A stretch of DNA of 46,291 bases, from NCBI GenBank assembly GCA_900128395.1, contig LT649281.1, forward strand, positions 1 through 46,291, written 5' to 3'. Below, piece after piece: positions 6,870-46,291 of the stretch. The position numbers and the translations under genes were made by a program. The stretch is from Stramenopiles sp. TOSAG23-2 (Eukaryota; Sar). Each line of letters opens with the position of its first letter. The first letter of the stretch is position 1. The notes beneath the pieces were generated by a model. That model searched no databases. It was not told the DNA's origin and saw nothing but the letters and a program-made list of their open reading frames with translations.

Positions 6870-9800
6870 TCACACCAAGGGTTCTTCCTCTTCCTCTCCC
6901 ACTTCTTTTTTTGTTCTACCCATTGTTGTACCACCCTTTACAAAGGTTTCCATTTCCATCTGTTCTTTCAAACGTTTTTCTTTCCTTTGTCTTCTTCGTT
7001 CATCTTTTTTCTTCTTTTCAAGTTCTTTTTGTCGTTGTAATCTTTCTAACCATTTTTTATTTCTCCATTCTAATTTACTTGCAAGACGTTGTATTTTAGC
7101 TTTTCGACGTTGTAGCACTGGTGATGATATTGCACCATAACCTCTATCAATAAACACATTATAAACACATTGTATAGATCGATTACTTGGATTTAATGAT
7201 GTAGCTTTTTGATAACATAAATGGGCTTCGTAATAATCTTTACGTACAATTTGTAAAAATATTCCTCGAGCTAATAACGATTTGGACATTGCAATATTCT
7301 TTGCTTGATATCGATGTTTTCGTATTGATAATTGCAATATTTGTCGATCAAAAATGTCATAGAAGGGCTCACCCATATCAGTTTCCATTATAAATGATTC
7401 CATACTTTCTATTCGATGTTCTACTTCCTCCTCATCTTCAACTTCAGCAAAATTTAACAATAAATTTCCAAATTGTAATGAATCACCTAATGGCATTTGA
7501 GAAACAAAATTTTCATATGCCCATCTTGCTTTTTTATAATTATGTAAGAATAAATGCAAATAAAATACATATGCCTCAATAGCTTTTGGTTCAAAATCAC
7601 TTGTGGATTCAATTTCATCATTTGAGTCTTCATCTTCCTCCGTTGAATCTTCGTCTGAGGAACTATAATCTTCCGAATTGTAATCCACACCTCTTTTCTT
7701 ACAATCAAGCAAACGTTTATACTTTACTAAACTGATTGGCTCTAATTTATTCCCGATTAATTTCTTGTTATGTTTCTCCCATGCTTTTTGTAGTTTAGCC
7801 ATTACTTTCTCTTGTGCTTCATGTTTTAATTTTGCTTCTACTGCAATAGTAATTCGCTCAACGAACAATTTTTGTTTGACAAGTAATTTAAATGTTTCAC
7901 CAGCACTTTGATCTCTAGAACTAATACCTCGGAAACATGATTGTATTTTCGTAGCCGCTCTTCGTCTTTCACGTATATCATCTGTGATCACAGCAATCAT
8001 AGATTCTACATGTTCAATTTGAGCATCATCTGGGCAAGGCATTCCTACATGTGTTGTCTCATTTGTAGTTTGACACCACCAATACGTTAAGCCGGATTCT
8101 TCATCTTCTGGATCATCAACTTCAATCCACTGCTTTGCTTCCCTCGCATTTACAAGTGATTCATGAACTTGTTTTAAATTATTCAACGCCTCATGCCGTT
8201 TACTATACAAAACATAATCACAAACAGCTTTGTTGATATTACCGGATGGATTATTATAATGTATTAATGCGTATCTATTGAAATAAATATCATAAAAATA
8301 ATGAAACGATTCTGCTTTTGGATCTAATAATACTGTAGGCTTTAACAAATTTTTCAGTTCCACTTTTTTTTTTGGTGTTGTTAAAAAGTGTACTATTGCT
8401 TTTAAGAAAATTAATAATGGTTGTTCCGGTTTTCGTTCCTTCTTCTTCTTCTTCTCAATGATTTTTCCTTCCACTTCCACATCAGTAGAAGTAGTAGCAG
8501 TAGTATCATCATCACCGATATCACGTTGCCCCGCTAAAATTTCCTTTGCAAGTTCATAGTTTTGTTTATATGCAATTTGATACGATACATAATTTATTAT
8601 ATTACTAATACTATTTGCATTTCGATTAAATCTAGCGACCACTCCTGATGTTTGATGTTGCAATTTCCATAAAATGGTTTTAAATTTAATTGTACGAAGT
8701 AATAGCAATTCACCAAAATATATACCGCTGTGTTTAATTGCTAAAAAGCGTCTCATTTGTCTTTGTATCTTAACAGCAGCCCAATATCTTCTTGAATACC
8801 ACATACATAGGTTTAAAAAATATCGAGCTCTTTGATTTCTCCAAAATTGCTGTAATTTGGTAGACATAACATATATTTTATACAACCTTGCCTTCTCTCT
8901 ACCTAATATGCCTCTAAAATATGCTTGGATACATATAGCAGCAAAATTATTTTTTGCATTTAGTTTACGTTTCTTGCTATTTATGAAATCAAGTGCTATA
9001 TATTTAACCTCTTCCGTTAAATTCCCTTCCTCATATAATGTCCTTTCCCATTTCGATAGTTCGTATTTATCTTTCACAACACGTTTTACCATTTTTTTTC
9101 TATCATGCAGTTCCAAATTTGCTACGAGCATTTGGAGCAACTTATCACCTTTATCTCTCCACCCAGGAACTTTACGATGATACCATAATACTGGATAATC
9201 TAGAAATAACTCTCTTATTTCTTTGTATTGGAACCATAATTTGTATTCATTACCATCTTCAGAAACTGCTAAAATTCTTAACCCACCATTATCATCTTGT
9301 GAGACTACCAACGATAAATATACTTGTCGTTGAGTTGTCAATATGGTCATTTTTGGATATGGTTCTTGTTTAAATTTAATATCTAACTTTTGACCTCGGC
9401 CTTTTACTGTTGTCATCACAAGCATTGGTAAAAATGCTTTTGCTAGTTGTTCTCCATATCTTGGTCTTAATAATCTTGGACGATCCAAACGGTATAAAAT
9501 TTCATTTACTTCTTTTGCCATTACAATACGACGATATTCTTTAATGCCCCTGATTGCATATCGTAGATTATTTTTACCAGCTTTTGCAAGCTCCTCCCGT
9601 TTTTTCCGTACACGATCCCATAATTGACCACTTATAAGTAAATTATCGCCACTTCGAAGCACCCTGATCTCAAGTTTAATATCATCTACGCGCCTTTTTG
9701 TTACACATAATAAATTGTGAAAAGAATCCCCACTTTTAATATTATCATCTTGAATTCGTTGAAACAATTGGCAATGCTCTGCAATTGGATGTGTCCGTGG

Positions 9801-12671
9801 TAACATTTTAATGCCTTTTGCAAGATCGTAAAATTTTGTTGCACGTCCAACATCGTTTAACAAATATCGGTAAACAAGCGCCAAGTACATTGCCTTTTGT
9901 TGATTCATTTTGTCATTTTTCCATGTAAAAAAGACAATATGATAAAAAATCAAACTGTCTCTCTTAGTGGTATCAAAACGCAAGCCTTCGTTCATTAATT
10001 CCAAGGCATCATCAGGATTACGTGGATTTTCCATTAAATCAAGCAATGCTTTACTAAAACAAAATAGTGGCATGCGACCTAATACTAAATTGTGTTTTTT
10101 ATGAAATAACTTTGTAAATTCAACATCTAATTCAACTATATGAACATGTAAAAGTTGCATGCATTGAAACGTACGTTCCTCTGCTTTTGACATAACTGGT
10201 ACTGGGATGTCTTCTTGTTTCTTTGTCTTTTCCCCCTCACCTTCACCTTCATCATCATCATCTGATGATAATGTATTAGTCATATCCGCCATTTTATCAG
10301 CAAATGAAAATTTTGAGCTTTTCGTATATGATTCTTTATCTGGCAATTCAATTTCTAAACATTCATTATATTTACCAAAGTAAAAGTTAAACGCACGACG
10401 CTTTTTACCAACAGATATACGCATTAATAATCCTCGAACACGACTTTGCAATAATCTAATATGGTAATACCGATGTGCTACAATATTTTCCATGTTGGTT
10501 AAAACTCGTTCCATACCTTGTTCAATAGCAACTGTTTGTTGCAATTCGTAATATATATCCTTTGCCAAGTAAATTCTAAAAGCACATTGGATAATTAACG
10601 CTTTTGCATTTAAATTTGCTATTCGCATTCTGGCAAATGCTCCTCTTGTTTTTCGCTGCAATTCATTGACCCATATTAATGTACTTTTATATTTATATTG
10701 TTGGATAACACGTCGATAAAATGCTTGTATTTTAACCACAGTCGCTATGACAAATTTAAAAATCTTTTTTGTACCGTTTTCTTCATGCCTATACCACAAC
10801 ATGATGTTTCTTTTTCGCCTATATGCAAGCCATTGACGTATATACGACTGCAAAAACGTAGATGCATCTAATTCCAATCGTATTCTTGCAACATCCATTG
10901 CCCTACCGATAGCTTGAATACGTCCTTGTACACCGCGAAATATACGCTGTATCTGTATAGCCATTTTCCCTAGATGGACAAGGCGATCGTATAAAGCTCT
11001 AATTTCATCAGGTGTCAATTGCAATGGTTTTCCATTGTCTTTTTCGCGTTCAGCTGCTTTGCTACCTGGTCGTAACATTGGGAAAAAATTAACTAGATAT
11101 TTATCAGCTCTAAATTTTGCTGACAATTTCTCAGTAAATCGAATTCGAGCTGCACGTCCACGGTATATTTTCTGAATTTGAGTTGCTGCATGTGTCTTCT
11201 CATTAAATATCCTCTCCCTTTCTTCTCGTAGCGTATCATTTTTAAATTGGTCAAACCATAACGATACTGAATATCGTCTAAAGTTTTTTTGAATTAATGT
11301 AGCAGCAAAAAACCGTTCATGTAATGTAAATGGATCAAAAAGCAACAAGTTTTTTCGTTGGTGATAATAGTTATTATTGATGTCATCGGCGTTGTTATCC
11401 AATGGTGTAGCTTGCCGTGGTACAATATCGGTAACGTTGTTATACTCTGCTGTAATACGTGCCGGTGAAGATGTTATTTGTTGAAGTTGTTGCCTCACTA
11501 GCAATGGGTTTCTTTTATTTTGCAAATTGTTTTCATCGTTTTTAATTATTATTGCATCAATTGGATTGATTATCATATCACTTAGCGATGAATCTGTATT
11601 GTTAAGATTATTTTCATCTGGTGTTGGTGGATAACTTATTCTACCTTTGGTCAATGCTTGATTTAATATATCATTATCATAGTTCACAGCTGCTAATTCA
11701 CGTTCGTCTTTTTGTTCATCAACTTTTACTTTGCTGTTCTCCTCTTTATCAAAATTGTCATCAGCATTATTCTCTGCATTTGTTGGTGATTTCAAAACTT
11801 CATCTTCATATTTTTTCCATAATAATTGATATGTATTACCTGTTAATGCCATTTCTAGCTGTTCTAAATTCGATTCATCTAAATCAAATTTACCACGTTT
11901 CTTCCTTCGACTACTTTTTCTTGAATTAGAACTTTTATTGGATGCTCTAGATATGCTACTACTACTTCCAGAATGTTTTGTGCCGCGGCTATTTACATTT
12001 TGATTATCAACGTGTTTACTGGAGAAAGTTGTCATACTTGTACGTGTACTTATTGCACTATTAGGCGACTTGTATTCTACTATTGACGTATTATTATTAT
12101 TATTATCATCACTACTTTTTTGTTTTGCATTTGGTGACAATTTTTCTTGCATTACCTGTTGGTGTTGAACAAGAGGACTATTTGGTGTTTGGGGCGATTT
12201 CATTACATTATTATTTACATGGCTATCGTATGCAGAATCATTATAATTGATCGAAGAAGACGCTGTTGATGGTGGTAAACTCGGCAACAAGAGGCCTAAT
12301 GCAGTTGGTGATTTTTTAGATAAATGATGTATTTCTCGTAAGCCGCTGCTTACACGCATATTTTTTCGCATGCCACCACTTTTATTAAATAAATTTAAAC
12401 GTTTTGCATCGTGATTTCTAGATTTGACATCCGGCGGTGTACTTATTAAAAGATGTGTTCGCAAGTCTGAATACAACGAATTTCTTGCTTTTAATGTGGA
12501 TTCCTGTGGTGGTTCTGCTATCAATCTACGAGTCCCTTCAGGTGGTATATATTTTGACGGACCCATTAGTCTTCTCTTCCTTTTGTTGTACAATTTTAGT
12601 AATATTGGACTCTGATTGTTGCCAATGTTCCTATTATCATTTTTCGAGAGATTTGGAAACAACCAAGACAT
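6870..12671 (-). CDS. Giant IQ-motif / TPR-containing protein (1933 aa)
   Basis: One uninterrupted ORF of 1933 residues. Residues 1-450 are Ser/Asn-rich and probably disordered, with basic RKSSRRKKRG at 251-260. A first IQ cluster follows (about 455-780), including AATLIQKNFRRYSVSLWF, AATQIQKIYRGRAARIRF and MAIQIQRIFRGVQGRIQA; these bind calmodulin or light chains. A helical, TPR-like section lies at about 830-970. Residues 1020-1160 include a possible C2-like beta-rich segment. A second IQ group starts near 1247 (AAICIQAYFRGILGREKAR). A Trp-containing WW-like stretch (LTYWWCQTTNETTHVGMP) is near 1530, another IQ near 1580, an acidic run near 1670-1690, and TPR-like helices at about 1730-1835. 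The C-terminus is a Lys/Arg/Glu coiled coil. A cytoskeletal or flagellar scaffold regulated by calcium is a reasonable inference; no orthologue name is claimed. Confidence 0.85.
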   Translation of the reverse strand: MSWLFPNLSKNDNRNIGNNQSPILLKLYNKRKRRLMGPSKYIPPEGTRRLIAEPPQESTLKARNSLYSDLRTHLLISTPPDVKSRNHDAKRLNLFNKSGGMRKNMRVSSGLREIHHLSKKSPTALGLLLPSLPPSTASSSINYNDSAYDSHVNNNVMKSPQTPNSPLVQHQQVMQEKLSPNAKQKSSDDNNNNNTSIVEYKSPNSAISTRTSMTTFSSKHVDNQNVNSRGTKHSGSSSSISRASNKSSNSRKSSRRKKRGKFDLDESNLEQLEMALTGNTYQLLWKKYEDEVLKSPTNAENNADDNFDKEENSKVKVDEQKDERELAAVNYDNDILNQALTKGRISYPPTPDENNLNNTDSSLSDMIINPIDAIIIKNDENNLQNKRNPLLVRQQLQQITSSPARITAEYNNVTDIVPRQATPLDNNADDINNNYYHQRKNLLLFDPFTLHERFFAATLIQKNFRRYSVSLWFDQFKNDTLREERERIFNEKTHAATQIQKIYRGRAARIRFTEKLSAKFRADKYLVNFFPMLRPGSKAAEREKDNGKPLQLTPDEIRALYDRLVHLGKMAIQIQRIFRGVQGRIQAIGRAMDVARIRLELDASTFLQSYIRQWLAYRRKRNIMLWYRHEENGTKKIFKFVIATVVKIQAFYRRVIQQYKYKSTLIWVNELQRKTRGAFARMRIANLNAKALIIQCAFRIYLAKDIYYELQQTVAIEQGMERVLTNMENIVAHRYYHIRLLQSRVRGLLMRISVGKKRRAFNFYFGKYNECLEIELPDKESYTKSSKFSFADKMADMTNTLSSDDDDEGEGEGEKTKKQEDIPVPVMSKAEERTFQCMQLLHVHIVELDVEFTKLFHKKHNLVLGRMPLFCFSKALLDLMENPRNPDDALELMNEGLRFDTTKRDSLIFYHIVFFTWKNDKMNQQKAMYLALVYRYLLNDVGRATKFYDLAKGIKMLPRTHPIAEHCQLFQRIQDDNIKSGDSFHNLLCVTKRRVDDIKLEIRVLRSGDNLLISGQLWDRVRKKREELAKAGKNNLRYAIRGIKEYRRIVMAKEVNEILYRLDRPRLLRPRYGEQLAKAFLPMLVMTTVKGRGQKLDIKFKQEPYPKMTILTTQRQVYLSLVVSQDDNGGLRILAVSEDGNEYKLWFQYKEIRELFLDYPVLWYHRKVPGWRDKGDKLLQMLVANLELHDRKKMVKRVVKDKYELSKWERTLYEEGNLTEEVKYIALDFINSKKRKLNAKNNFAAICIQAYFRGILGREKARLYKIYVMSTKLQQFWRNQRARYFLNLCMWYSRRYWAAVKIQRQMRRFLAIKHSGIYFGELLLLRTIKFKTILWKLQHQTSGVVARFNRNANSISNIINYVSYQIAYKQNYELAKEILAGQRDIGDDDTTATTSTDVEVEGKIIEKKKKKERKPEQPLLIFLKAIVHFLTTPKKKVELKNLLKPTVLLDPKAESFHYFYDIYFNRYALIHYNNPSGNINKAVCDYVLYSKRHEALNNLKQVHESLVNAREAKQWIEVDDPEDEESGLTYWWCQTTNETTHVGMPCPDDAQIEHVESMIAVITDDIRERRRAATKIQSCFRGISSRDQSAGETFKLLVKQKLFVERITIAVEAKLKHEAQEKVMAKLQKAWEKHNKKLIGNKLEPISLVKYKRLLDCKKRGVDYNSEDYSSSDEDSTEEDEDSNDEIESTSDFEPKAIEAYVFYLHLFLHNYKKARWAYENFVSQMPLGDSLQFGNLLLNFAEVEDEEEVEHRIESMESFIMETDMGEPFYDIFDRQILQLSIRKHRYQAKNIAMSKSLLARGIFLQIVRKDYYEAHLCYQKATSLNPSNRSIQCVYNVFIDRGYGAISSPVLQRRKAKIQRLASKLEWRNKKWLERLQRQKELEKKKKDERRRQRKEKRLKEQMEMETFVKGGTTMGRTKKEVGEEEEEPLV

Positions 12672-21362: not shown

Positions 21363-21765
21363 ATATTGTTTTATAGCTCTTAATTGTGATTTCATATTAT
21401 CACTAAGTTGATTAGTAGATAGCCACAATGTCTTTAATGTATTGTTTGTTTTTAATCCATCAATAATACTTTGTATTCCACTAATATTATTATTATCTAG
21501 GTACAATACCTTTAATGTCTTGTTTGATTTTAATGCTTCACCAATACTTTGTACATCAGTATTTATATTGTTTTATAGCTCTTAATTGTGATTTCATATT
21601 ATCACTAAGTTGATTAGTAGATAGCCACAATGTCTTTAATGTATTGTTTGTTTTTAATCCATCAATAATACTTTGTATTCCACCATCATCAGTAATATTG
21701 TTATGACCTAGGTACAATTCCTTTAATGTATTGTTTGTTTTTAATCCTTCACCAATACTTTGTAC
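21363..21765. repeat. 202-bp tandem duplication of LRR tail
   Basis: The block starting at about 21363 (TTATATTGTTTTATAGCTC, then the LRR tail and last repeat) recurs starting at about 21563-21565, an offset of about 202 bp. The copies join inside a codon, so the tail-coding ORF terminates (QYKY*) before re-entering LRR sequence in another frame. Confidence 0.8.
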
Positions 21766-22240
21766 ATCAGTAATATTATTACCTTGTAGGTTCAATATCT
21801 TTAACGTATTGTTTGCTTTTAATCCTTCACCAATACTTTGTACATCAGTAATATTATTATTGTCTAGGTACAATGTTGTTAATGTATTGTTTGTTTTTAA
21901 TCCATCAATAATACTTTGTATTCCACCATCATCAGTAATATTGTTATGATATAGGCGCAATTCCTTTAATGTACTGTTTGTTTTTAATCCTTCACCAATA
22001 CTTTGTACATCAGTAATTCTATTACCTTGTAGGGACAATTTCTCTAATGTATTGTTTGTTTTTAATCCTTCACCAATACTTTGTACATCAGTAATATTAT
22101 TATTATCTAGGTACAATACCTTTAATGTCTTGTTTGATTTTAATGCTTCACCAATACTTTGTACATCAGTAATATTATTTTGACCTAGGTCCAATGATGT
22201 TAATATATTGTTTGTTTTTAACAATTCACCAATAGCTGAT
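21417..22240 (-). repeat. DNA-level LRR array, 78/87-bp units
   Basis: Roughly nine units of 78 bp, with longer 87-bp variants (extra Asp-Gly-Gly), are nearly identical at the DNA level. One 74-bp stretch (21708-21781) matches 46158-46231 exactly in opposite orientation. Confidence 0.9.
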
Positions 22241-22345
22241 ACATCATCACCATTAACACAAGAGAACGATGCACACCAACATGGACAAATAAACAACAAT
22301 CTACAACAGAGCATATCCCACCACCAATATTGTAATAATAACCAG

Positions 22346-25611: not shown

Positions 25612-28600
25612 TCACATCTTTAATACGACTGGAACACCGTAACAAATTGTCGCAGATCCATTTAAAAACGGTAATTTGATATTTTTTATACCACGTCGCT
25701 TTCCAATCAGTTTCATATTTGTCCCATCATGATCTTTTAATGAACTTTTCAAAATATCATTCAGCCATTTACCTTTTTCACATGATGCTATATTATTTAA
25801 TAATCGCATTGCTAATATGTCACAATCACCACTACTAACTTTCCATAAATTCGACACAACAGCTGGACAACCAGCACTGATTAAACTAAACACTTTACCA
25901 TGAGATCCAAAACGACCTTTTGTATAAAGTCTACCACTATTACAACCCATATCAAAAATAATACAATTCGTTTCATTGGAGGATTTTGCTACTTTTCCAG
26001 AGCTTGTAAATTTCATAAGACTATCATGTCCCCAATATGTCAATACTTCTGATGTATTTAATAAATTCATAATATCGTTTGATGCAGGTTTTTTACCAAT
26101 TATAATTCGCTCCGTATTACTAATACCTGATAATAAATCGGATAACGCGCCGTTACAAGTATCACCATCTTTCAATTTACAAAAGTTTTTCTCTGTTTGT
26201 GGCAAATTACGTTCTGGATTAATTACATATGAACTGTTCGATAACTTGTAACATGTTTGAGTTTTTTTCTCGCTAGATGAGACTCGTTCCCATAAATCTA
26301 ACAATGAATGAATTGAAGGCATTCTAGTCACGTGGATATCATGAAATGTCTTTGTAGATTCCCATGGAAAACATTGCATTTCTGATCCTAAAATAAGAAT
26401 GATTGGATTGTTTTTCGATGATGATAACGACATATTCGACATTTTACTTTCTAACGATGATGATGATTTGGAATTGCCAAAATTAAAGACTGAAACCAGC
26501 TCATCTAGTTTTTCTATTAATGTTTTCATATCATTTTCTATCTCATACCTGCTTTTCCACCAATTCTTTTTAGCATTATTATCACTCGTATCAATATTAC
26601 AAGCATCATCTAAAGTTTTTTCATTATTCATTTGTATTTTATTAAAGTTATTCAATAATATTTCCATTTGGCTGCTTGTTATTTGAATCGCTTTCATAGC
26701 TATTTCTCCATTTCTGACATGCGTCATTACGATACCTAAGTGATTATCATAATACATAGAGACAACATCCCAATTATTAACCTGTTGAAGCTTTTTAAGA
26801 CGTAACATTGTATGCTCTTGTGTATTTTTTAATGACGATAATGTTGGATTAAATCGTTTAAAAAGTGTCTTCTTATTGCTGCTGTTGCTGCTAATATTCT
26901 GGTTGCTGCTGCTATTATTATTATTATTATTATAATGCCATAAATCGTATGATAAACCAATTGAAAGCAATGCCAACACACCAATGCTGCTACTATTATT
27001 ACTACTAGACCCAGCACCTTTCTTACTATTCAAGCAATAATATTTTGTTCCAACATATCCACGTAATACTTGACGTGTAATGAACGGTATTGATAAACCC
27101 CAAACAAAACGTGCAGCTGTTTTACAAGAATCAAGTGCAAGTATATTTTGTTTCGGTTTTATTTTTGATTGAAAATAACATAATACCGCACGTTCAATAG
27201 GTAATTTACATATTTGGAAGCATTTTTTCATCATTTTTCGAACAATATCGTCTGTTTTCTCATAATTGGTAGACTTTAAATGTAATTCTAATTCATGAAA
27301 CATTTTTTCTTGCTCCATATTTAATATTTTCGTGCAATGATCAATTTGAAAGCCTGATGATTTTTCACTACTACTACTACTACTACAAATCCATGATTTA
27401 TCAAGAACATCACTATCTTTTCCGGAGCAAAACAATTTCAACATGCTGGATATTAATTTATTTACATGTTTTATTTCCGACTTTGCACGTTGACTATTTC
27501 CAATGAATACACTATGTTCAATATGACCAAGTCCTTGTGCTAATGTATTTACACATATTTTACTTGTTTTTGTAATGCGAAATGGTTTAAATGTTATTTT
27601 TTCTTCGTCATCATCCTTCCTAATAAATGATTGGCATCGTACATTTGTTAAAATATCAAGTTGCAATTGAAACGTCTCATACCTTGTGTTTGCCCTCAAA
27701 ACTTTAGTTAAATCGATTCCAGTTGATAAATATGCTTTGGAGCATGATGGTAAACATCGTTGTTGATACAATACATTCATGAATGATAAAAACGAGATAT
27801 AAGTTTGTATAACTGGCCATGAATTTAAAGGCAAAGTTGATATAATATTGCCATTATTATCAATATCATTTTCTTCCTCTTCGTCGCCGTCCATCGTTGT
27901 TGGTTCTAATGTTAAGTGATTAACTTTACGATGATAAAATAAATCTGCACGCTTTGCAAAATCTAATGCATTACCCATTTGACCGATTGCATGATGTAAA
28001 CGTGACATCGTAAACATATGTTTACCATATGTTGGATCAAATTTAGATATAGCACATACATTTTTTTTCAAAGTTTCTAATTCATGTTTTAAATGTTCAA
28101 TATTATATTTTGTATGCAATTTTAATTCTTCTTTTAACAATTTATATGAAATGGATAATGTTGATGATTTTGCCATCGTCGATGATGGTTGAATAGTTTT
28201 CAAAATATTTATAGCTATCGTTGTAAATCCTTGATTATATAAAGTTTCAACAAGCTTTAACTTAATATCAATAAAATCAGGTTGTATTTTTTTTAAGACG
28301 TATTGAACGAATACATTTTTCGCCATATAATGACGAGCATGATCTTCCCATCCTAATGCTTGTCGAAACAATTGAATCTCAATATCGGTTTCATTATAAA
28401 TGTTAAAAATAATTGCTACATTTTGCAATAACGCAACAGTTGGTTGCATTATATACCATGGGTATTTGATGGTTTTAATGTACTGTCCATTTACGTGTTG
28501 TAATTTTGCAATTGACTTTTTTAACAATTGGAATCTATCAATTGTGCATGAATTATCAGTATTATACAATCCATAGATAATATCACGCCATCCTAACAAT

Positions 28601-30126
28601 ATGAATTGCTTGCTATAATCTTTTGTAGCAAATACAATATCGAATTGTTGAAATAATTCATTTATTGAAAAACGACTATGTTTTACAATATCCTCCTTTT
28701 CAATGTTTTTTAACAATAAAATATTGTCAAACAAACTGATGGACCAATGCAATATAAATCTTGTTGGATTGCTTTGTTTTGCAAAATAATTACGCATAAC
28801 AGAATGAACTGCGCAATAACCATTCAAACACATTTCTTGCACAATAGTTTCATCTCCAGCTTCTAATATATAAAATTTATATGCCTCAGATATTCGATGG
28901 AGTATAAAACATTTCGTTTCATTTATCATGGAGTTGTTGTTATCATTCTCCACCATTGATTTAGCAAACGTTTCCCATAACATGTTAGATAGAAACGACT
29001 CTTTTTTTACCTTGTATTTTCGTTGCCATCTCGCTTGGTTACCAATAATCATATTTACGATTTTCTGTATAAAACTACATGCATTATTGTAATTATTATT
29101 ATTATTATTATTGGAAATATATGTTAAAATTGATCGTGTTAATATATTCAAATCAATTGATCGATTGTTTTGATCTGGTGGTGTTGGTGATGATGATTGT
29201 ATTGTTTTATCATTTAGTGATAATAATTTTTTATAAGTTGCAAAACTATATTGATAACGTGCAAAAACAATATGATCATGATTATTGCCATTATCACTGG
29301 TAGCATCAGCAGTAGCAGCAGCAGATGATGTATCAAATGCACACGATGTCAACATACTTGATATAAAAAATAAATTGTAATAACAATCAATGGAAGACGA
29401 GACTAGTTCTTTTTCTAAATAAACTGCAGTGCGAAACGTAATACTTGCTAATTTTCTTAAAAGTTCCTTTGATTGTATCTTCGAGCATATAATTTCACTT
29501 TGAAAAATATCACCTAACGTTTTATTTGTATTTTGATGATGATTATTATTATTCATATATATATTAATTGTATGAAAAAAAATGTGAAAATAAATGATTT
29601 TTTCACTTAATTGTGCAGAACTTATTTCAACTAATTTTTTTAACATCGTTGTAATTGGTTTCATGAGAATTTTTTTCGTACTATCGCTGTCAAAAATAGA
29701 GTTGGTTGAAGTAGTATTAAAGGCAAACCACCAACATGTATTGTTATTATCGTTTTGTTTTGTTTTTTTATCATCATTAGTCGTTTTATTGTTCTGTTTA
29801 TTATGAATGTCGTTATTATTTTCATTATTATTATTATTTTTGGAATTACAAATAGTTACAGTTTTCTCCAAAATCGATAGACATTTCTGCAATATATGTT
29901 CTTGTAACGAACCTTGTATCTCTTTCGATTCTTTGTATTCCTCATAGGATTCAAGTAATTTCACATCGCCTTTCTCTTTTTCAATTAATTTTTTTGGCGT
30001 TATAATGTATTCCAACCGTTTATTTAAATGTTTATAAATTTTTCCTAATCCTTCATTAGTTTTACATCCTTTTAACTTGATGGAAATTTTTTCAAAATCA
30101 CGAATAATTTTTTTCACAAACGCCAT
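25612..30126 (-). CDS. ESP1: Separase (cohesin-cleaving CD-clan protease)
   Basis: The protein has 1504 residues, in the lower part of the separase range. The long N-terminal part is helical (TPR/HEAT-like) with Asn-rich inserts. The C-terminal protease is unmistakable. The pseudo-caspase/active-domain entry is ILILGSEMQCFPWESTK...TRMPSIHSLLDLW. The catalytic His1367 is in LTYWGHDSLMKF and the catalytic Cys1395 in IIFDMGCNSGRL. Then come SLISAGCPAVVSNLWKVSSGDCD and the terminal ICYGVPVV, all in family order. Separase cleaves the cohesin kleisin after ExxR at anaphase onset and is held inactive by securin. His and Cys are both intact. The gene is divergent from the candidate securin gene at 30836. 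The ATG at 30124-30126 is the first in a Lys-rich N-terminus. Confidence 0.95.
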   Translation of the reverse strand: MAFVKKIIRDFEKISIKLKGCKTNEGLGKIYKHLNKRLEYIITPKKLIEKEKGDVKLLESYEEYKESKEIQGSLQEHILQKCLSILEKTVTICNSKNNNNNENNNDIHNKQNNKTTNDDKKTKQNDNNNTCWWFAFNTTSTNSIFDSDSTKKILMKPITTMLKKLVEISSAQLSEKIIYFHIFFHTINIYMNNNNHHQNTNKTLGDIFQSEIICSKIQSKELLRKLASITFRTAVYLEKELVSSSIDCYYNLFFISSMLTSCAFDTSSAAATADATSDNGNNHDHIVFARYQYSFATYKKLLSLNDKTIQSSSPTPPDQNNRSIDLNILTRSILTYISNNNNNNNYNNACSFIQKIVNMIIGNQARWQRKYKVKKESFLSNMLWETFAKSMVENDNNNSMINETKCFILHRISEAYKFYILEAGDETIVQEMCLNGYCAVHSVMRNYFAKQSNPTRFILHWSISLFDNILLLKNIEKEDIVKHSRFSINELFQQFDIVFATKDYSKQFILLGWRDIIYGLYNTDNSCTIDRFQLLKKSIAKLQHVNGQYIKTIKYPWYIMQPTVALLQNVAIIFNIYNETDIEIQLFRQALGWEDHARHYMAKNVFVQYVLKKIQPDFIDIKLKLVETLYNQGFTTIAINILKTIQPSSTMAKSSTLSISYKLLKEELKLHTKYNIEHLKHELETLKKNVCAISKFDPTYGKHMFTMSRLHHAIGQMGNALDFAKRADLFYHRKVNHLTLEPTTMDGDEEEENDIDNNGNIISTLPLNSWPVIQTYISFLSFMNVLYQQRCLPSCSKAYLSTGIDLTKVLRANTRYETFQLQLDILTNVRCQSFIRKDDDEEKITFKPFRITKTSKICVNTLAQGLGHIEHSVFIGNSQRAKSEIKHVNKLISSMLKLFCSGKDSDVLDKSWICSSSSSSEKSSGFQIDHCTKILNMEQEKMFHELELHLKSTNYEKTDDIVRKMMKKCFQICKLPIERAVLCYFQSKIKPKQNILALDSCKTAARFVWGLSIPFITRQVLRGYVGTKYYCLNSKKGAGSSSNNSSSIGVLALLSIGLSYDLWHYNNNNNNSSSNQNISSNSSNKKTLFKRFNPTLSSLKNTQEHTMLRLKKLQQVNNWDVVSMYYDNHLGIVMTHVRNGEIAMKAIQITSSQMEILLNNFNKIQMNNEKTLDDACNIDTSDNNAKKNWWKSRYEIENDMKTLIEKLDELVSVFNFGNSKSSSSLESKMSNMSLSSSKNNPIILILGSEMQCFPWESTKTFHDIHVTRMPSIHSLLDLWERVSSSEKKTQTCYKLSNSSYVINPERNLPQTEKNFCKLKDGDTCNGALSDLLSGISNTERIIIGKKPASNDIMNLLNTSEVLTYWGHDSLMKFTSSGKVAKSSNETNCIIFDMGCNSGRLYTKGRFGSHGKVFSLISAGCPAVVSNLWKVSSGDCDILAMRLLNNIASCEKGKWLNDILKSSLKDHDGTNMKLIGKRRGIKNIKLPFLNGSATICYGVPVVLKM

Positions 30127-30835
30127 AATTATTACGTTATTATTGTATCAATGTAACAATGTATATCAGCAAGACTGTCTTTTTTGTTTCCGTCGTTACT
30201 TTGTGTTATCGACGTTTGTTCCACGTATGTGATGTATGTATATCATATATTCGATAATAATTTTAATATATATATATATTTTATTATTTCTTGTTTTTGG
30301 GCATCGATCGATTATTATTAGCATACGAATAGTATGGGAGCAGTCGGATTGAGGGAGTGGACAGGTGCAATCCATGTGAGGGAGTAAAATATATTATTTG
30401 AAAAAACGCCAACACGAATATAGCATAGGAATAGCACCTAACGTCTTCATCAACTATCAAATGACAATAATTTATACTTGAAAAGGGAATTAGAATACTA
30501 AATACACACGTCAATAATATGGATTTTCATACATAAAAACAAAAAATAAAAAACAATACATATATATAGTTGGGTAGATAGATAGATATATTTCTTTTGG
30601 TAGTGTGATTCAAACATAAGATTATTTTCTAACGTATTGTATTAACGTATATATGTTTATATAAATTAAATTTCACGTATAAATTACTATAATCGATTTC
30701 GTAATTTGAAAACACACACACAAAAAAAAGAACGAGAAATACGAATCGCAAGAGCATTTTGTTTTTTAATAATTTTAATTTCGTCAAACTATATATATAG
30801 ATCTATAAGCACGCAAAAAGTTATAGTTTAGAAAC
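30127..30835. promoter_or_regulatory. Bidirectional promoter region between separase and candidate securin
   Basis: These 709 bp separate two divergent starts and must include both promoters unless distant elements are used. It is AT-rich, with TA tracts (30266-30282, 30790-30800), a GATA/TAGA tract (30572-30592) and a more GC-rich block at 30330-30385. I recognise no defined transcription-factor site. Confidence 0.55.
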
Positions 30836-31453
30836 ATGTCATCCTTTATCAATCAAACAAACTTATCAAAGGAAAATCCTAATAATCATCATCCAAATAT
30901 GATTATGAAACAAAAATCTACTTTAAAAGGGAAAAAAAGTGGTGGTTTAAAAGTACGTAAACCATTAGGCCAAATAAACGCAAATGTTGGAACAACGTTA
31001 AAACATAATCATAGTAAAAATAGTGGCATCAAGAAACAACAAAAAACATTTAGAAAACCATTAGGAACAATCAGTAAAAATTCGATCAATGTAAATAAAT
31101 CCACTGTTCCAAATGTGGAAGCATGGCCTAAATCAAATACTAAACATGTTGAATATTTTCCATATGCAGAGAAACCATCGGCAAAAACATTTTTAAATAA
31201 TTTAACGAAATGTAATAATAATAATAATAATAATAAAAATAGGAAAGTTGTAGAAATTGACCATGAAGAGACAAAACATTTAATAACAAGTGGGTTTGAC
31301 AATGATGTAGATGATTTGGTTGGTACAAAAAGTCTTGTCGTTAATAGTAGTAAAAAAGGTGGTTTGCTTGGATCATTAATTGGTGATATGGGTGATGAAG
31401 ATTTATCTGATTTAAGTTCATCTGATGATGATAGTAGTAGTGATGATGAATAA
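30836..31453 (+). CDS. Candidate securin (separase inhibitor)
   Basis: This 205-residue, largely disordered protein has no homology obvious by eye except to securin logic. A KEN box is at 12-14 (SKENPN). There are two destruction boxes, RKPLGQIN at 41-48 and RKPLGTIS at 73-80; the animal securin D-box has the same R-K-x-L-G-T/x-hydrophobic-N/S form. At 96-110 EAWPKSNTKHVEYFPY resembles the animal securin stretch with a Pro, then acidic and aromatic residues and FFPF, which lies in the separase active site as a pseudosubstrate. The N-terminal half is strongly basic and the C-terminal 20 residues are almost all Asp/Ser/Glu, the polarity seen in many securins. It sits head-to-head with separase. 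Other KEN/D-box proteins (sororin, geminin-like) are alternatives. Confidence 0.65.
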   Translation: MSSFINQTNLSKENPNNHHPNMIMKQKSTLKGKKSGGLKVRKPLGQINANVGTTLKHNHSKNSGIKKQQKTFRKPLGTISKNSINVNKSTVPNVEAWPKSNTKHVEYFPYAEKPSAKTFLNNLTKCNNNNNNNKNRKVVEIDHEETKHLITSGFDNDVDDLVGTKSLVVNSSKKGGLLGSLIGDMGDEDLSDLSSSDDDSSSDDE

Positions 31454-31762: not shown

Positions 31763-34700
31763 TTACAACGTTTCCAGTTTATTATTACCATCGTCCATCC
31801 TTCTTCTCAATGGACTATTGTTGGTTCCTGCAGCAACCGGGTTTGATTGAACCAATCGGCGTCTAATACGTCGATGTCGACTACTGCCGCGTATGACCCA
31901 ATTCAATTGATCTGAACTTGGCCATGCCTTTGATAATAACGTATCAGTAGTATTCATTGAATTACCACGACTTGGTGCTCGTAATACAAGAAGTGAAGGA
32001 AATGTACCGCTTTTTCTATTATTCGATTGGCTATTTTTTGTGTAATTATTATTATTATTACCACCACCACCAGATGATTGCATGTATGATGGTTGCTCTA
32101 CATCCTCGTATCTTTTGCGAGTATCCATTTTCTTGAATCCATTACCTTCCATAGTATTTAGCTCACCGTCATCTTCATATCGCCTACCACTGCTTTGTCC
32201 ACTACTGCTGCCACCCATGTCACCGAAATCACCTTCCATAAAATTCATCATATTACCGCTTTGGTTGTGAAGTTCACTTCCAACTTCTGGAGTTGATGGC
32301 AATTGATCGTATAAAAAAGAACTTTTACGACGTATTGGTACCGATGCAGCTTGCCCTATCAACATATTATTATTATTATCACCACCTCCAGTACTTTCCA
32401 TAAATTGTAATTCACTGGATAATGGACGAATACGTTTGGGAGTTGGGGGAGGTATAAACAATGTATGGAAGTTAACAACGTATACTAATTCTGACCTACG
32501 CTCTTTTTTTCTTGATTTCTTCCCAAACATTATAGTAGAACCATTCTGAAGACTAACTCGAGCTATCGAACACCTTTTACCATCAACATACGTGCCATTT
32601 GTACTATTACAATCTACCAAATGCATTTGAGGAACACCTTTATTATCAAATGTGCTATATATCATGGCATGAACTTTACTAACCATTCGACTTTGAATTT
32701 TAGAATCCAGTACCAAATCACAACTTCTTTCTCTACCAACAACAGTTCTCCCTTCATAAATACGCAATTCCTTTGGTATGTCACGCAATATTTCTTCATC
32801 TATATTATTACTGTTAAAAGTTGCTGGATTCAAGTTATTGTTGTTGTTGTTGTCATTATTATTATTGTTGTTGTTGCTAGAAGATGATTTAGAATCTTCT
32901 ATTAATTGTAAAGTTGCACAAATTGGTCTTGACGGTGATGGTAATATCTTTGTTTTTGCATTACTCTTTTTCTTGACATTTGTTTTAATTGGCGTTGGCA
33001 TCAAATTGTTTGCACCATTAGAGATACCACCACCACTCATCATTAAAGTTGATTTTTGAAGTGTGCCGCTGTTATTATTTGACAAGCGCATCATCATATT
33101 AGGTTGCTTTGGCGGCGTTTCTATTGCGACTGGACTTGGTTCAACTGTATGAAGTGGGAATATTTGTCTAGGTGGTTGCTGGCGTTGTTCAAGGTCATTA
33201 TATGGTGTACCATTCATCATGGCGCCTTCAACATTTTGCACTGCATTTTTCAGCATATTAATAATTGTTTCATATTTTGGCAAAGTTCGCTCCTCCTCTA
33301 TATCATCTTTATCAACAGGTATTGGCTCAGCAAATGTCGGACTGACACGTCCTTTTCGCTTTTTCTTAGTCGATTTAATTTGTTTTACATTTTTGCTTGT
33401 ATCCTTTTTCTTATTATTACCCCCAAAGAAAGTTTTCCCTGTACCAACATTATTAACCATGGATCGAAGGAGATGTTCGCTTTTAATTGTTTTCTTCTTC
33501 GTATTTTTCTGTTTTCCCCTCTTGTCCATGGTTGATTTTGCAACTGTTTTTTGTTTTTCTTTGATTTCATCTTCCATATCTTCTAGCTCAAATGTATCAT
33601 CCTTATATTCAAACTCATCATCATCATAGTTTCCATCTTCACTACTATCTGGTATTATCTTGCGCCTATCACCCATCTTCGTCGCTTTTTTCATTTTCTT
33701 ATTTTGTTTTGGTTTAATACCCTTTTTTAATGCCATTTTCTTTTTATGTTGTTTTAAATAATTACGTCGTTTTAAATCGTTTAACGATTTTGGTGGGTGT
33801 TTTAAATAATCGTCTACGTCTTCTTCAATCCCTTGTTTAAATTCAGTTATTAATTGTTTATGTACAGATTGCAAAGGCTTATCGTTCATATGATCCAAAG
33901 TCAAAGCGTAAAAATGCTTCTCTTTTTCCATCTTGAATCGTCTGCTCTTCTCAATTGCCATTTTTTTCGCTAATTTATCTTGCTCTTTCAACGTATCAGA
34001 TATTTTCCTCATTCGTTTTATATTTGTTTCTGTTAACTTAATCTCTTGATCTAAACGTTGGATATTGGATATTTTCTTCCTTGTCCGTTCTAAGCTGGCT
34101 TTTGCTTGCATTTCAACAAATTCCACATCTTTGATTTCTTGTTCATCTAATTTAACAGTTTGATCCTTTTTAGACAATAACTGTGGTTTGAACAACATGT
34201 TTTTCTTTATTTTTCGTGGTGCAAATAAATCCTCGCCACCACGTTGTGTACCATTTAACTTTCGTCGGGCACGTATCCGTTTTATATGTTGCTGTATCAT
34301 CCGTTGGCTCCGACCTGATGGAGTTTCTGTTTTCCCATCTAACACGTCTTGTCCAACTAAAAATCGCGGCGAAGTTAATTTTTTACGTATATATTTCTGA
34401 AGATCGGTAACTGAAGGTTTTCTAATTTCCAACGACAACTGTATTGGTGCGGAAGATGCATTTAATGATTGTCTCAACGTTTTTGTATCCATTGTACTAC
34501 GCAAAAATTTGTAAAAACTATCAAAATTTCGCTCTACACCAGTTGCCATGTGAAAACGTTTGGTCATCGTAGAACGTTTCGGTTTCTTTGCTATATAATA
34601 ATCTTCTTTCTCGCTATCACGAAATACACCAACAACGTGGTTAGTAATAAAATGCCCACAATAACAAATCAATGGCTTCGTACTATCGGCAACACCAAAT

Positions 34701-36378
34701 TTATTACAATCACATTTTGAACAGTATCCATACCTATCTGCATCTCCTATACGGTATGAATTACCCATGCCATGGCCTGTACCTAATTTTTTAATCAATA
34801 AAACACTTTTTAATCCATTTATATGCTGACGCCTATATGCTTCACGTCGATCAAACAAACACCTGGCGAGATATCCGCGTATCATTTTTTGTATCAAAAT
34901 TGCACTACGCTTACGTTTTGCAACTAATTTTCTATAAAGTACCATTGTAATATGTTTTTTATGTCTAGCAAGAATCCAATTTTTAATATATATTCCACTA
35001 GCTACTTGTAACTTTATACGATTTGCAGTCGCTATACGTTGCAACGGTTTTCTACTTTCATATAATTTTTCAACAATTAATTTATGATCTCTAGCCCACT
35101 TTAACCTTTTTAATTTGTTTCTGCCTAATTTACCTCTCATGAATTTTTGCAAAAATGTTGCTGCGTCGATTTGATCTAACAAGTGCAAAACGTAATTTCG
35201 TGCTAGTTTACCACGCATGACAGCTTGTATTTTAATTATTTTTCGTAAATATTTTTGTTGTCCAATTTTTTTAATAACTTTAGCCAGAAATTTTTTTCTA
35301 AATACATACATTTTCCATGTTGCTTGAATTTTGGCTGCACATTTGATTTTTAAACGCAGCAAATCGACAAAATTACGCGCAGCTTTGCCTCTATATATTC
35401 GCTGTAACTTAACAATGAAAAAGTTCATCTTTTTCAATCTTGCGATTTCCTTTAAAGCATCTTCTACCATTTTTGCAATACGACCTTGTGCTTCCCGCTT
35501 ACCCAACATCCGTCGAAAAAAACCTTGTAACAAAATTGCAGCATTGAGACGGGCCTCTGTGAAAAATAAACATACATATATATATAAATCATGTGTTAGT
35601 GTATAAATTAAAATGTATGTGTATGTGTGTATATATATATATTACGTTATGTTAGATACTTACCAGGTTCTAAATATTTTTTATAATACCATTCTTTATA
35701 TTTACGATGTGGAGTTAACACTTTATATTTAATCTTTTCTTTTGTTCTATGTATGCGATTTTTAAAATTTTGCACAATTTTCCTAGGATCAATACTTTCT
35801 CTTTTTTTCTTTTTGCTACTTCCAAAAATAGCCTCTAATGCTGCTTTTTGATCACCAACCCCTGCTTCTAGTAGTGGTACGATTTTAATAGCATGCCCAC
35901 ATTCAATAGCATAATCTTTCGCAGTTTTCCCATACATATTGGTTAAATCTACTGAACAACGTGGTCGTTTTTGTTCATCAAATAATAAAGTTGGAATTAA
36001 TAAACTATATCCTGCTTTACAGGCTTCAATTAGTGGTGTCATACCAAACTTATTTTCATAATCTGCATCTGCACCACGCTCGATGAGTTTGCGTATTGGC
36101 ACCCTTAAACCATATCTACATGCTGCTATCAATGGTGTATTACCATATGTATCTTCCCAATTTACGTCTGCACCATAATTATCTATTAGCATATATACTT
36201 TCTCAAAATCACCTTTTCGCATAGCATCTGTATAATCAGCATATATAACGCGAAGACCTTCTCGTTTCTCCGCTTCAACTCTTGCTTTAGCCTCCTTTAA
36301 CTTGGCCTCGTAAGCTAACTTTGCATCTGCTTCCGCTTGTTTTCTACGCTCTTCAACAAGCTTTTTCGCTGCATCCAT
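31763..36378 (-). CDS. Ankyrin - IQ - Cys/His - FHA multidomain protein, two exons
   Basis: Exon 1 is 36378-35664 and exon 2 is 35556-31763, giving 1502 residues. Residues 1-40 are a charged coiled coil. About three ankyrin repeats follow (45-180), e.g. DVNWEDTYGNTPLIAACRYG and NKFGMTPLIEACKAG. Six IQ motifs run from about 243 to 470, e.g. FIVKLQRIYRGKAARNF and SAILIQKMIRGYLARCLF. A Cys/His cluster (CSKCDC ... CYCGHFITNH, about 510-545) could bind zinc. A long Lys/Glu coiled-coil section follows. The FHA domain at about 1165-1250 carries the phosphothreonine-binding residues: Gly-Arg in TVVGRERSCD, Ser in MVSKVHA and Asn in NSTNGTYVDGKRC. The tail is Asn/Ser-rich. The protein probably scaffolds calmodulin-dependent and phospho-dependent contacts at a cytoskeletal structure. 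I do not know a named orthologue. Confidence 0.8.
35557..35663 (-). other. Intron (107 bp) of ankyrin-IQ-FHA gene
   Basis: Donor GTAAGT after GAACCTG, acceptor TTTTTCACAG before AGGCCCG, phase 1. Removing it joins ...YLEPE to ARLNAAILLQGFFRRM, completing the first IQ motif. Confidence 0.9.
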
Positions 36379-44838: not shown

Positions 44839-45316
44839 ATTTTTGGAAATATGTATGTGTGTGTATTTGGATTATTATATTATTTCGGACCAATGTGCCA
44901 ATTTGTTATTATAGTAAATTGAAGGATAATTTAGTTTTTGTACAATTACAAAATGTGTGTATGTAATGTATATGATATATATATATATATATATATAACC
45001 GCTGACACGTGTGTAAATGATATTTTGATAACTGATGAATATGTTGATACCAATTGGTTATATATTATATAATATATATATATTTATCTTGTTGAAGAAA
45101 ACTGTACTTCATTCACCAATTCCCCACTTCGATATTATATAGTAGAGGGGAGGAGACGAGAGGGGGCTTCATTCAACAACAATCATCAATTGAGAGTTTA
45201 AGTTGTTCAAAATCATCAACAAGTCGTCAAATTGAATGAATGAATGTCAGGACAGAGATAGAGATATACATGATGCAAGAATATACATATATATATATAA
45301 ACATACGATTATTACA
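44839..45316. other. Divergent intergenic region
   Basis: Between FAM98 (-) and the third LRR gene (+). TA runs lie at 44976-44997 and 45061-45083, with a purine-rich AGAGGGGAGGAGACGAGAGG block at 45141-45165. An in-frame ATG at 45236 would add 27 residues to the LRR protein; I prefer 45317. Confidence 0.55.
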
Positions 45317-46291
45317 ATGACATCATTAGTTACGGACGATAATAATAATACAACAACCACTAGCACCACAACTACAACGACGAACCAAAATGATATGGAA
45401 AGTTATGACAATAAAAATAATAATGTGAATACTATTAACATTATTAATACAATGATGAATAATCATCTATCTGATTTAACACAAAAAGCAAAGAAACAAG
45501 CAATAGAGCGGATAGTCGCCATGGCAAATTTTGAACTAACCAAACTTGATAAAAAGGTTGTCAGTGAACCACAACATTTTGAAGATTTACCTAATATATT
45601 ACAAATATGTAGTGGAACAGATGAAAAGCCAGGTCTTATATCATATTTTGAAGACGATATAGTGGCAGTGATAAATATGTTTGGAAAATCAAGTAAACAA
45701 TTTCTTGAATATGATCCCTTGCGTCGTAAATATTATAAAATTGTATTACAATCAAAATATGGTGGTGTAGCACCTGATAAATCTGTTACATATTTAAGTG
45801 CATTACATGGTAAAATTGATGTGGTAAACTATCTATTAGAAAAAGGTGGTGATTGGAATGACAAAATTGAAGGTCTTGTGAACAGGTTGGAGGTTTATTA
45901 TGAAGTAAATTTTAGTAGTGATGCCATTGATTTGGAAGACAAGAACATCACGGATGAGGATGTACAAATTATTGGTGAATTATTAAAAACAAACAATACA
46001 ATAAAGAAATTGGACCTACATGATAATAATATTACTGATGTACAAAGTATTGGTGAAGGATTAAAAACAAACAATACATTAGAGATATTGTACCTACAGA
46101 ATAATAATATTACTGATGATAGTGGAATACAAAGTATTATTGATGGTACCTAATTGATAATAATATTACTGATGTACAAAGTATTGGTGAAGGATTAAAA
46201 ACAAACAATACATTAAAGGAATTGTACCTAGATGATAATAATAATATTACTGATGTACAAAGTATTGGTGAAGGATTAAAAACAAACAAGA
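45317..46291 (+). CDS. LRR gene with Asn/Thr-rich and ankyrin-like N-terminus; frame break, runs off window
   Basis: From 45317 the first 45 residues are Thr/Asn-rich. A helical region follows, and VTYLSALHGKIDVVNYLLEKGGDW resembles an ankyrin repeat. LRRs of the 26/29-residue type start near 45945 (KNITDEDVQIIGELLKTNNT). At 46146-46153 the frame ends (IIDGT*). Compared with intact units, about 31 bp are missing at this junction, and LRR sequence resumes in another frame to the end of the window. The gene is therefore incomplete here and possibly non-functional unless the junction is a sequencing or assembly error. Confidence 0.7.
45945..46291 (+). repeat. DNA-level LRR array, locus 3
   Basis: Four or more 78/87-bp LRR units, nearly identical in DNA to the units at 21.4-22.2 kb; 46158-46231 is an exact 74-bp match to 21708-21781 in inverted orientation. 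The array continues past the window edge. Confidence 0.9.

Follow-up and report, generated by a model that had tools for sequence, protein, structure and literature searches.

Does the small gene beside the separase gene of Stramenopiles sp. TOSAG23-2 encode the inhibitor of that protease, securin? The question is raised by contig LT649281.1, whose whole length of 46,291 nucleotides (about 31% GC) is the window analysed here, in an assembly of 17.45 Mb and 793 contigs whose gene content (separase, Rad21, cyclins) is that of a eukaryote. A 2011 survey placed securins in animals and fungi only and inferred none for the common ancestor (PMC3195147). The plant protein Patronus was added to the securins later (PMC7943633), and a Tetrahymena study reported no obvious securin candidate (PMC3610610). 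The initial annotation proposed that the 205-residue product of this gene is a securin, and judging from sequence it is most probably a functional securin of this protist. This function is the best explanation because the neighbouring gene, the degrons, the Rad21-like segments, the layout of charge and the conservation point to it together. The features on which the argument draws are the following.

25612–30126, minus strand: separase, 1504 aa, with His1367, Cys1395 and pocket Asp1436 (Peptidase_C50, 6.8e-43; separases in the PDB)
30127–30835, no strand: intergenic region of 709 bp between two divergent start codons (ORF coordinates), possibly a shared promoter
30836–31453, plus strand: candidate securin CDS, 205 aa, a single open frame (translation; P0002 near-identical)
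30869–30877, plus strand: KEN box, residues 12–14 (invariant in the five of five aligned rows that cover it)
30956–30985, plus strand: D-box 1, RKPLGQINAN, residues 41–50 (R[KR]PLGQIN in five of five covering rows; 8/10 columns invariant)
31052–31081, plus strand: D-box 2, RKPLGTISKN, residues 73–82 (RxxL in four of six rows; RxxF in P0004 and P0005)
31115–31129, plus strand: VEAWP, residues 94–98, alternative putative pseudosubstrate of the form ΦExxP, with Pro98 as P1 (invariant in six of six rows; regex match at 94)
31145–31165, plus strand: HVEYFPY, residues 104–110, proposed pseudosubstrate (P6 to P1'), with Pro109 as P1 (VEYFPY in five of six rows, VDYFPY in P0005; cf. the Rad21 sites DVELGR↓A and DVEGGR↓A)
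31172–31195, plus strand: KPSAKTFL, residues 113–120, the end of which runs into a weakly predicted helix, 116–128 (8/8 columns invariant; AlphaFold2, low confidence)
31256–31300, plus strand: acidic/hydrophobic block IDHEETKHLITSGFD, residues 141–155, a possible separase exosite contact (10/15 columns invariant, six rows)
31352–31420, plus strand: conserved KKGGLLGSLIGDMGDEDLSDLSS, residues 173–195, which may touch the helical domain of separase (18/23 columns invariant, six rows)

The neighbour is a real separase, and the residues that had been proposed as its catalytic pair, His1367 and Cys1395, are numbered correctly. In addition to the Peptidase_C50 match, the ORF matched separases in the PDB from 2.4e-19 (5fc2), and the two residues were found in the sequences YWGH1367 and MGC1395. 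Asp1436 sits 41 residues past Cys1395, with no gap between them in the PDB alignment; the invariant pocket residue of human separase, Asp2070, is also 41 residues past the catalytic Cys2029 (PMC12609080, PMC10317155). Both separase matches in the assembly fell within this gene and no second copy was found. The candidate and separase genes lie head-to-head, 709 bp apart.

Translation confirmed the 205-residue ORF with a KEN box at 12–14, D-boxes starting at 41 and 73, and Trp97-Pro98 followed by E106-Y-F-P-Y110. The basic N-terminal half and acidic tail described earlier were borne out by the ratio of Lys/Arg to Asp/Glu, which was 20:2 in residues 1–103, 10:21 in residues 104–205 and 0:11 in the last 22 residues. 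When AlphaFold2 was run on the alignment of the candidate and its relatives, the mean pLDDT of the candidate was 54 and a single weak helix (116–128) was seen directly after the decoy region; on this prediction the protein is disordered. Securin is thought to be disordered when free (PMC6858450).

A protein search identified five homologues of the candidate, with 49–69% identity. This first search gave 7 matches and a profile search gave 11, adding only four fragments; all matches of both searches were close relatives, fragments or a chimera, and neither search found a homologue past the close relatives. One sequence, P0002 (ENA records, 205 aa, a cluster of 27 member sequences), differs from the candidate, P0001, at one residue. 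The alignment used throughout contains P0001 and the five relatives; left out were P0002, P0007, in which the N-terminal half is joined to a methyltransferase-like sequence, and the fragments P0009–P0012 (82–88 aa). Among the aligned rows, P0008 is partial and begins after the KEN box and D-box 1, and P0006 has 73 extra N-terminal residues, which were kept in the alignment and removed for the local alignments to securins. Viral contigs gave 43 pattern matches, and no relative was encoded at any of them.

Orthologues were expected to retain the motifs, and they did so: the KEN box and D-box 1 are kept in all five rows that reach them, VEAWP and FPY in all six, and VEYFP in five of six, where P0005 has VDYFP instead. 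D-box 2 is looser and weakens from RxxL to RxxF in two of the six. In the five full-length rows, the KEN box, the two D-boxes and residues 105–110 were invariant at 21 of 29 columns, against 64 of 176 elsewhere, a level matched by 13 of 205 circular shifts with the true position counted. When all six rows were taken, the same four motifs were invariant at 10 of 29 columns, against 54 of 176 elsewhere, which 85 of 205 shifts reached; in this count the partial P0008 empties the columns of the KEN box and D-box 1. A stricter expectation, that conservation would be confined to the KEN, D-box and YFPY sites, failed. All six columns of residues 94–99 are invariant across the six rows, and residues 113–120, 141–155 and 173–195 are also highly conserved, so that the C-terminal half is as constrained as the degrons. 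In known securins it is the C-terminal half that lies along separase.

Separase cleaves after [D/E/S]ΦExxR (PMC12609080). Two family searches of the assembly found a single Rad21/Rec8, the domains of which were confirmed (L006, G000:C5, 1529–3646, 705 aa), and no second, meiotic kleisin. This Rad21 has two near-identical [DES]ΦExxR sites, DVELGR↓A at 236 and DVEGGR↓A at 512, whereas its shuffles contained a mean of 0.13 sites and reached two in 10 of 2000 cases. In the VEYFP and VEAWP segments of the candidate, Val corresponds to P5, Glu to P4 and Pro to P1, and both segments can be read as the DVExGR site of Rad21 with Pro replacing the P1 Arg, as in yeast Pds1. We infer Pro at P1, in the candidate and in Pds1, from our own reading of the register. 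Securins swap the P1 Arg for a large hydrophobic residue (PMC10317155); human securin, with the segment EIEKFFP, becomes a substrate when 118-FP is changed to RE (PMC6858450), and a DIE motif is present in yeast and worm securins (PMC4626109).

The segment originally put forward as the pseudosubstrate was EYFPY. It is kept as VEYFP in five of six rows and resembles the Rad21 sites; the second ΦExxP segment, VEAWP, is the better conserved, and the identity of the decoy is therefore ambiguous. Because of its likeness to human EIEKFFPF we favour V105-E106-Y107-F108-P109 as the probable decoy, with V94-E95-A96-W97-P98 as the alternative; the ambiguity affects the detail of the mechanism and leaves the odds of a securin unchanged. 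The residue at P6 fits less well. Across the six rows the position ahead of VEYFP holds H, H, P, P, S and A, none of them acidic, and only the Ser of P0006 agrees with an acidic residue or Ser; ahead of VEAWP there is Asn in all six. In the DIE motif of yeast and worm securins, P6 is Asp. Compared with what a functional securin should carry, the family thus appears to have an N-terminal APC/C degron (KEN and D-box 1, each five of five) and a conserved pseudosubstrate with ΦExx and a P1 other than Arg (VEAWP, six of six; VEYFP, five of six), and appears to lack the acidic residue or Ser at P6.

If the candidate works as a securin, the disordered protein would bind separase with its C-terminal half laid along the enzyme, and a ΦExxP segment would occupy the active-site cleft, where it would act as a decoy for the DVExGR site of Rad21. 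With Pro at P1, where the protease needs Arg, the site would be blocked and the candidate would stay uncut. At metaphase the KEN box and the D-boxes would deliver it to the APC/C, and its destruction would release separase to cut Rad21; until anaphase the protease would be kept in check.

The layout resembles that of animal securin (PTTG1, PF04856) in length, in the N-terminal KEN box, in the RKxLG D-box, in the basic N-terminal and acidic C-terminal halves, and in a [DE]A[YW]P segment followed by a decoy of the E-x-F-P-[FY] type. In human securin the KEN box starts at 9 (12 in the candidate), the last D-box at 61 (73), the P4 Glu of the decoy is at 115 (106), and the length is 202 residues (205). 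Unlike animal securin, the candidate has two D-boxes, its P1 would be Pro and not Phe, and there is no significant sequence match. It also lacks the LPE and NxLxΦE motifs that dock human securin; a regex scan of P0001 for LPE/VPE and NxLxΦE found none. With budding yeast Pds1 the candidate shares the ΦExxP decoy, which is DIEIAP in Pds1 (letters confirmed against PDB 5u1s), and presumably also a KEN box and a D-box. Pds1, at 373 aa, is longer, has an acidic P6 and carries a VPE motif after the decoy, whereas the candidate is shorter, its P6 is not acidic and VPE is missing. By its description the plant securin Patronus is comparable as well: it inhibits separase, is a substrate of the APC/C and for a long time escaped recognition (PMC7943633).

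A profile match to another KEN/D-box family had been named beforehand as an outcome that would speak against a securin; it did not appear, as P0001 had no match in Pfam up to an E-value of 10, and no direct match in the PDB either. The weak Pfam matches of its relatives were to Securin and to families without known KEN or D-boxes. Pfam Securin (PF04856) was matched by one of the six members only, P0006, with 11.2 bits and an E-value of 0.39 against a curated cut-off of 22 bits; the match spans residues 84–201, from the KEN box to past the FPY segment. A profile search of the PDB gave 7 chains at E 1.6–1.7, with no securin or separase among them. Comparison by hhalign with 13 mammalian securins gave a probability of 1.2% (P 0.042) over 17 columns around D-box 2 only; these 13 came from the best 120 of 467 animal securin matches, the named ones among which are from mammals, which makes for a shallow profile. 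Local alignment scores were compared with those of full shuffles and of shuffles within 15-residue windows. In 1000 full shuffles the score against human securin was reached 35 times for P0001, 167 times for P0006 and 27 times for P0004; in 1000 window shuffles it was reached 158, 310 and 50 times, respectively. Against the C-terminus of Pds1 the corresponding numbers were 508, 761 and 49 of 1000 full shuffles and 524, 706 and 84 of 1000 window shuffles, no better than shuffles for two of the three members. The proposal of a securin is supported by motifs of functional type and their layout, and it falls short with respect to homology to the animal securin family by Pfam, hhalign and local alignment. 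On sequence grounds, homology to animal and fungal securins, membership of Pfam Securin included, is not demonstrable, and by this evidence the candidate would belong to a separate lineage-restricted family or to one eroded beyond recognition.

An unrelated family, the Na_K-ATPase beta subunit, scored better than Securin and was matched by four of the six members (best E 0.0046). We rejected this as a chance match because it reached 16.6 bits against a cut-off of 23.3 and the related PDB alignment was driven by the stretch PNV...P...YFPY.

The KEN box alone means little: when the candidate was shuffled 100,000 times at constant composition, one arose in 14,709 cases. A KEN box with two RxxL was found in 237 of these 100,000 shuffles, KEN, RxxL and ΦExxP in any order in 221, [VI]E[FYK]F(F)P in 15 and two R..LG.[ILV] boxes in 1, where these last two patterns had been devised with the candidate sequence already in view. 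We also sampled ORFs of at least 150 aa, overlapping by less than 30%, from the window and from another 200 kb spread over 20 contigs elsewhere in the assembly (n=103, candidate included). KEN occurred in 11 of them, RxxLG in 11 and ΦExxP in 17. The combination of KEN with RxxLG was found in the candidate only (1/103), as was the order KEN, RxxL, ΦExxP (1/103); KEN, two RxxL and ΦExxP in any order occurred in three, namely the candidate and two ORFs of 3040 and 1006 aa. A cyclin of mitotic type carries the canonical D-box RRALGDISNN, and RxxLG degrons therefore look standard in this genome. The string LEYFPYTERKK was found inside the cyclin boxes of a cyclin encoded in this genome, at the beginning of the Cyclin_C domain, so that YFPY alone is not diagnostic.

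These counts bear on the possibility that an unrelated, disordered Lys/Asn-rich protein lies next to separase and carries the strings by chance. The low GC content of the window, the frequency of KEN and ΦExxP among the sampled ORFs and the YFPY-like strings elsewhere in the genome would all favour it, as would the fact that the gene was picked as a neighbour after separase had been seen. We nevertheless consider chance highly improbable, as the combination of motifs is unique among the 103 ORFs and the motifs are kept among relatives that share 49–69% identity. More weight, although still little, can be given to another APC/C substrate, or a pseudosubstrate-type inhibitor of the APC/C, which would bind Cdc20/Cdh1 via the KEN box and D-boxes and have nothing to do with separase. 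KEN boxes and D-boxes serve as general signals for the APC/C, inhibitors of this type, such as Acm1 and Mes1, share the short length and the disorder, and a D-box is the sole stretch that hhalign aligns to securin. Such a protein would, however, leave unexplained the adjacency to separase, the ΦExxP segments that match Rad21 and the conserved acidic C-terminal half, and we regard it as unlikely.

A different regulator of cohesion degraded by the APC/C, similar to sororin or shugoshin, would act on cohesin or PP2A and not on the separase active site. Small disordered proteins with KEN and D-boxes are hard to recognise, and Patronus, now counted as the plant securin, was first known from the premature loss of cohesion in mutants (PMC7943633), which means that the roles of securin and of cohesion protector can be confused. 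A scan of P0001 revealed no FGF motif of Sororin, and together with the lack of a Pfam match at E up to 10, and with ΦExxP segments and a linkage to separase that a cohesion regulator does not explain, this makes such a regulator very unlikely. A securin remains our preferred reading.

If the candidate is a securin, a separase-paired securin in another lineage would provide a seed sequence for finding missing securins, as well as a recipe for the search, namely to look beside separase for a gene whose product carries a decoy of the Rad21 site found in that genome. It would also make testable whether securin is ancestral or was reinvented. The most far-reaching reading, in which a securin of a lineage other than animals, fungi and land plants retains the whole layout of KEN box, D-box, ΦExxP decoy and acidic tail together with its pairing to separase, is possible, though we hold it to be rather doubtful. 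Among the matches listed in the open-access literature, titles and abstract openings named no securin of the candidate's family.

Several other genes of the assembly and the window were also noticed. A single ORF (L010, G000:C622, 412–2253) contains a Pkinase domain (3.3e-48) followed by Cyclin_N (1.3e-30) and Cyclin_C (7.5e-20), and is thus a natural kinase–cyclin (CDK-like) fusion; kinase–cyclin fusions are known from oomycetes and other stramenopiles. In the window, very large IQ-motif proteins are encoded at 6870–12671 (minus strand, 1933 aa) and 31763–35533 (minus strand, 1256 aa), the latter with an FHA domain. Two LRR genes, at 21556–22314 (minus strand) and 45236–46153 (plus strand), have in common near-identical repeat units, TNNTLKxLxLxxNNITDVQSIGEGLK, as judged by eye.
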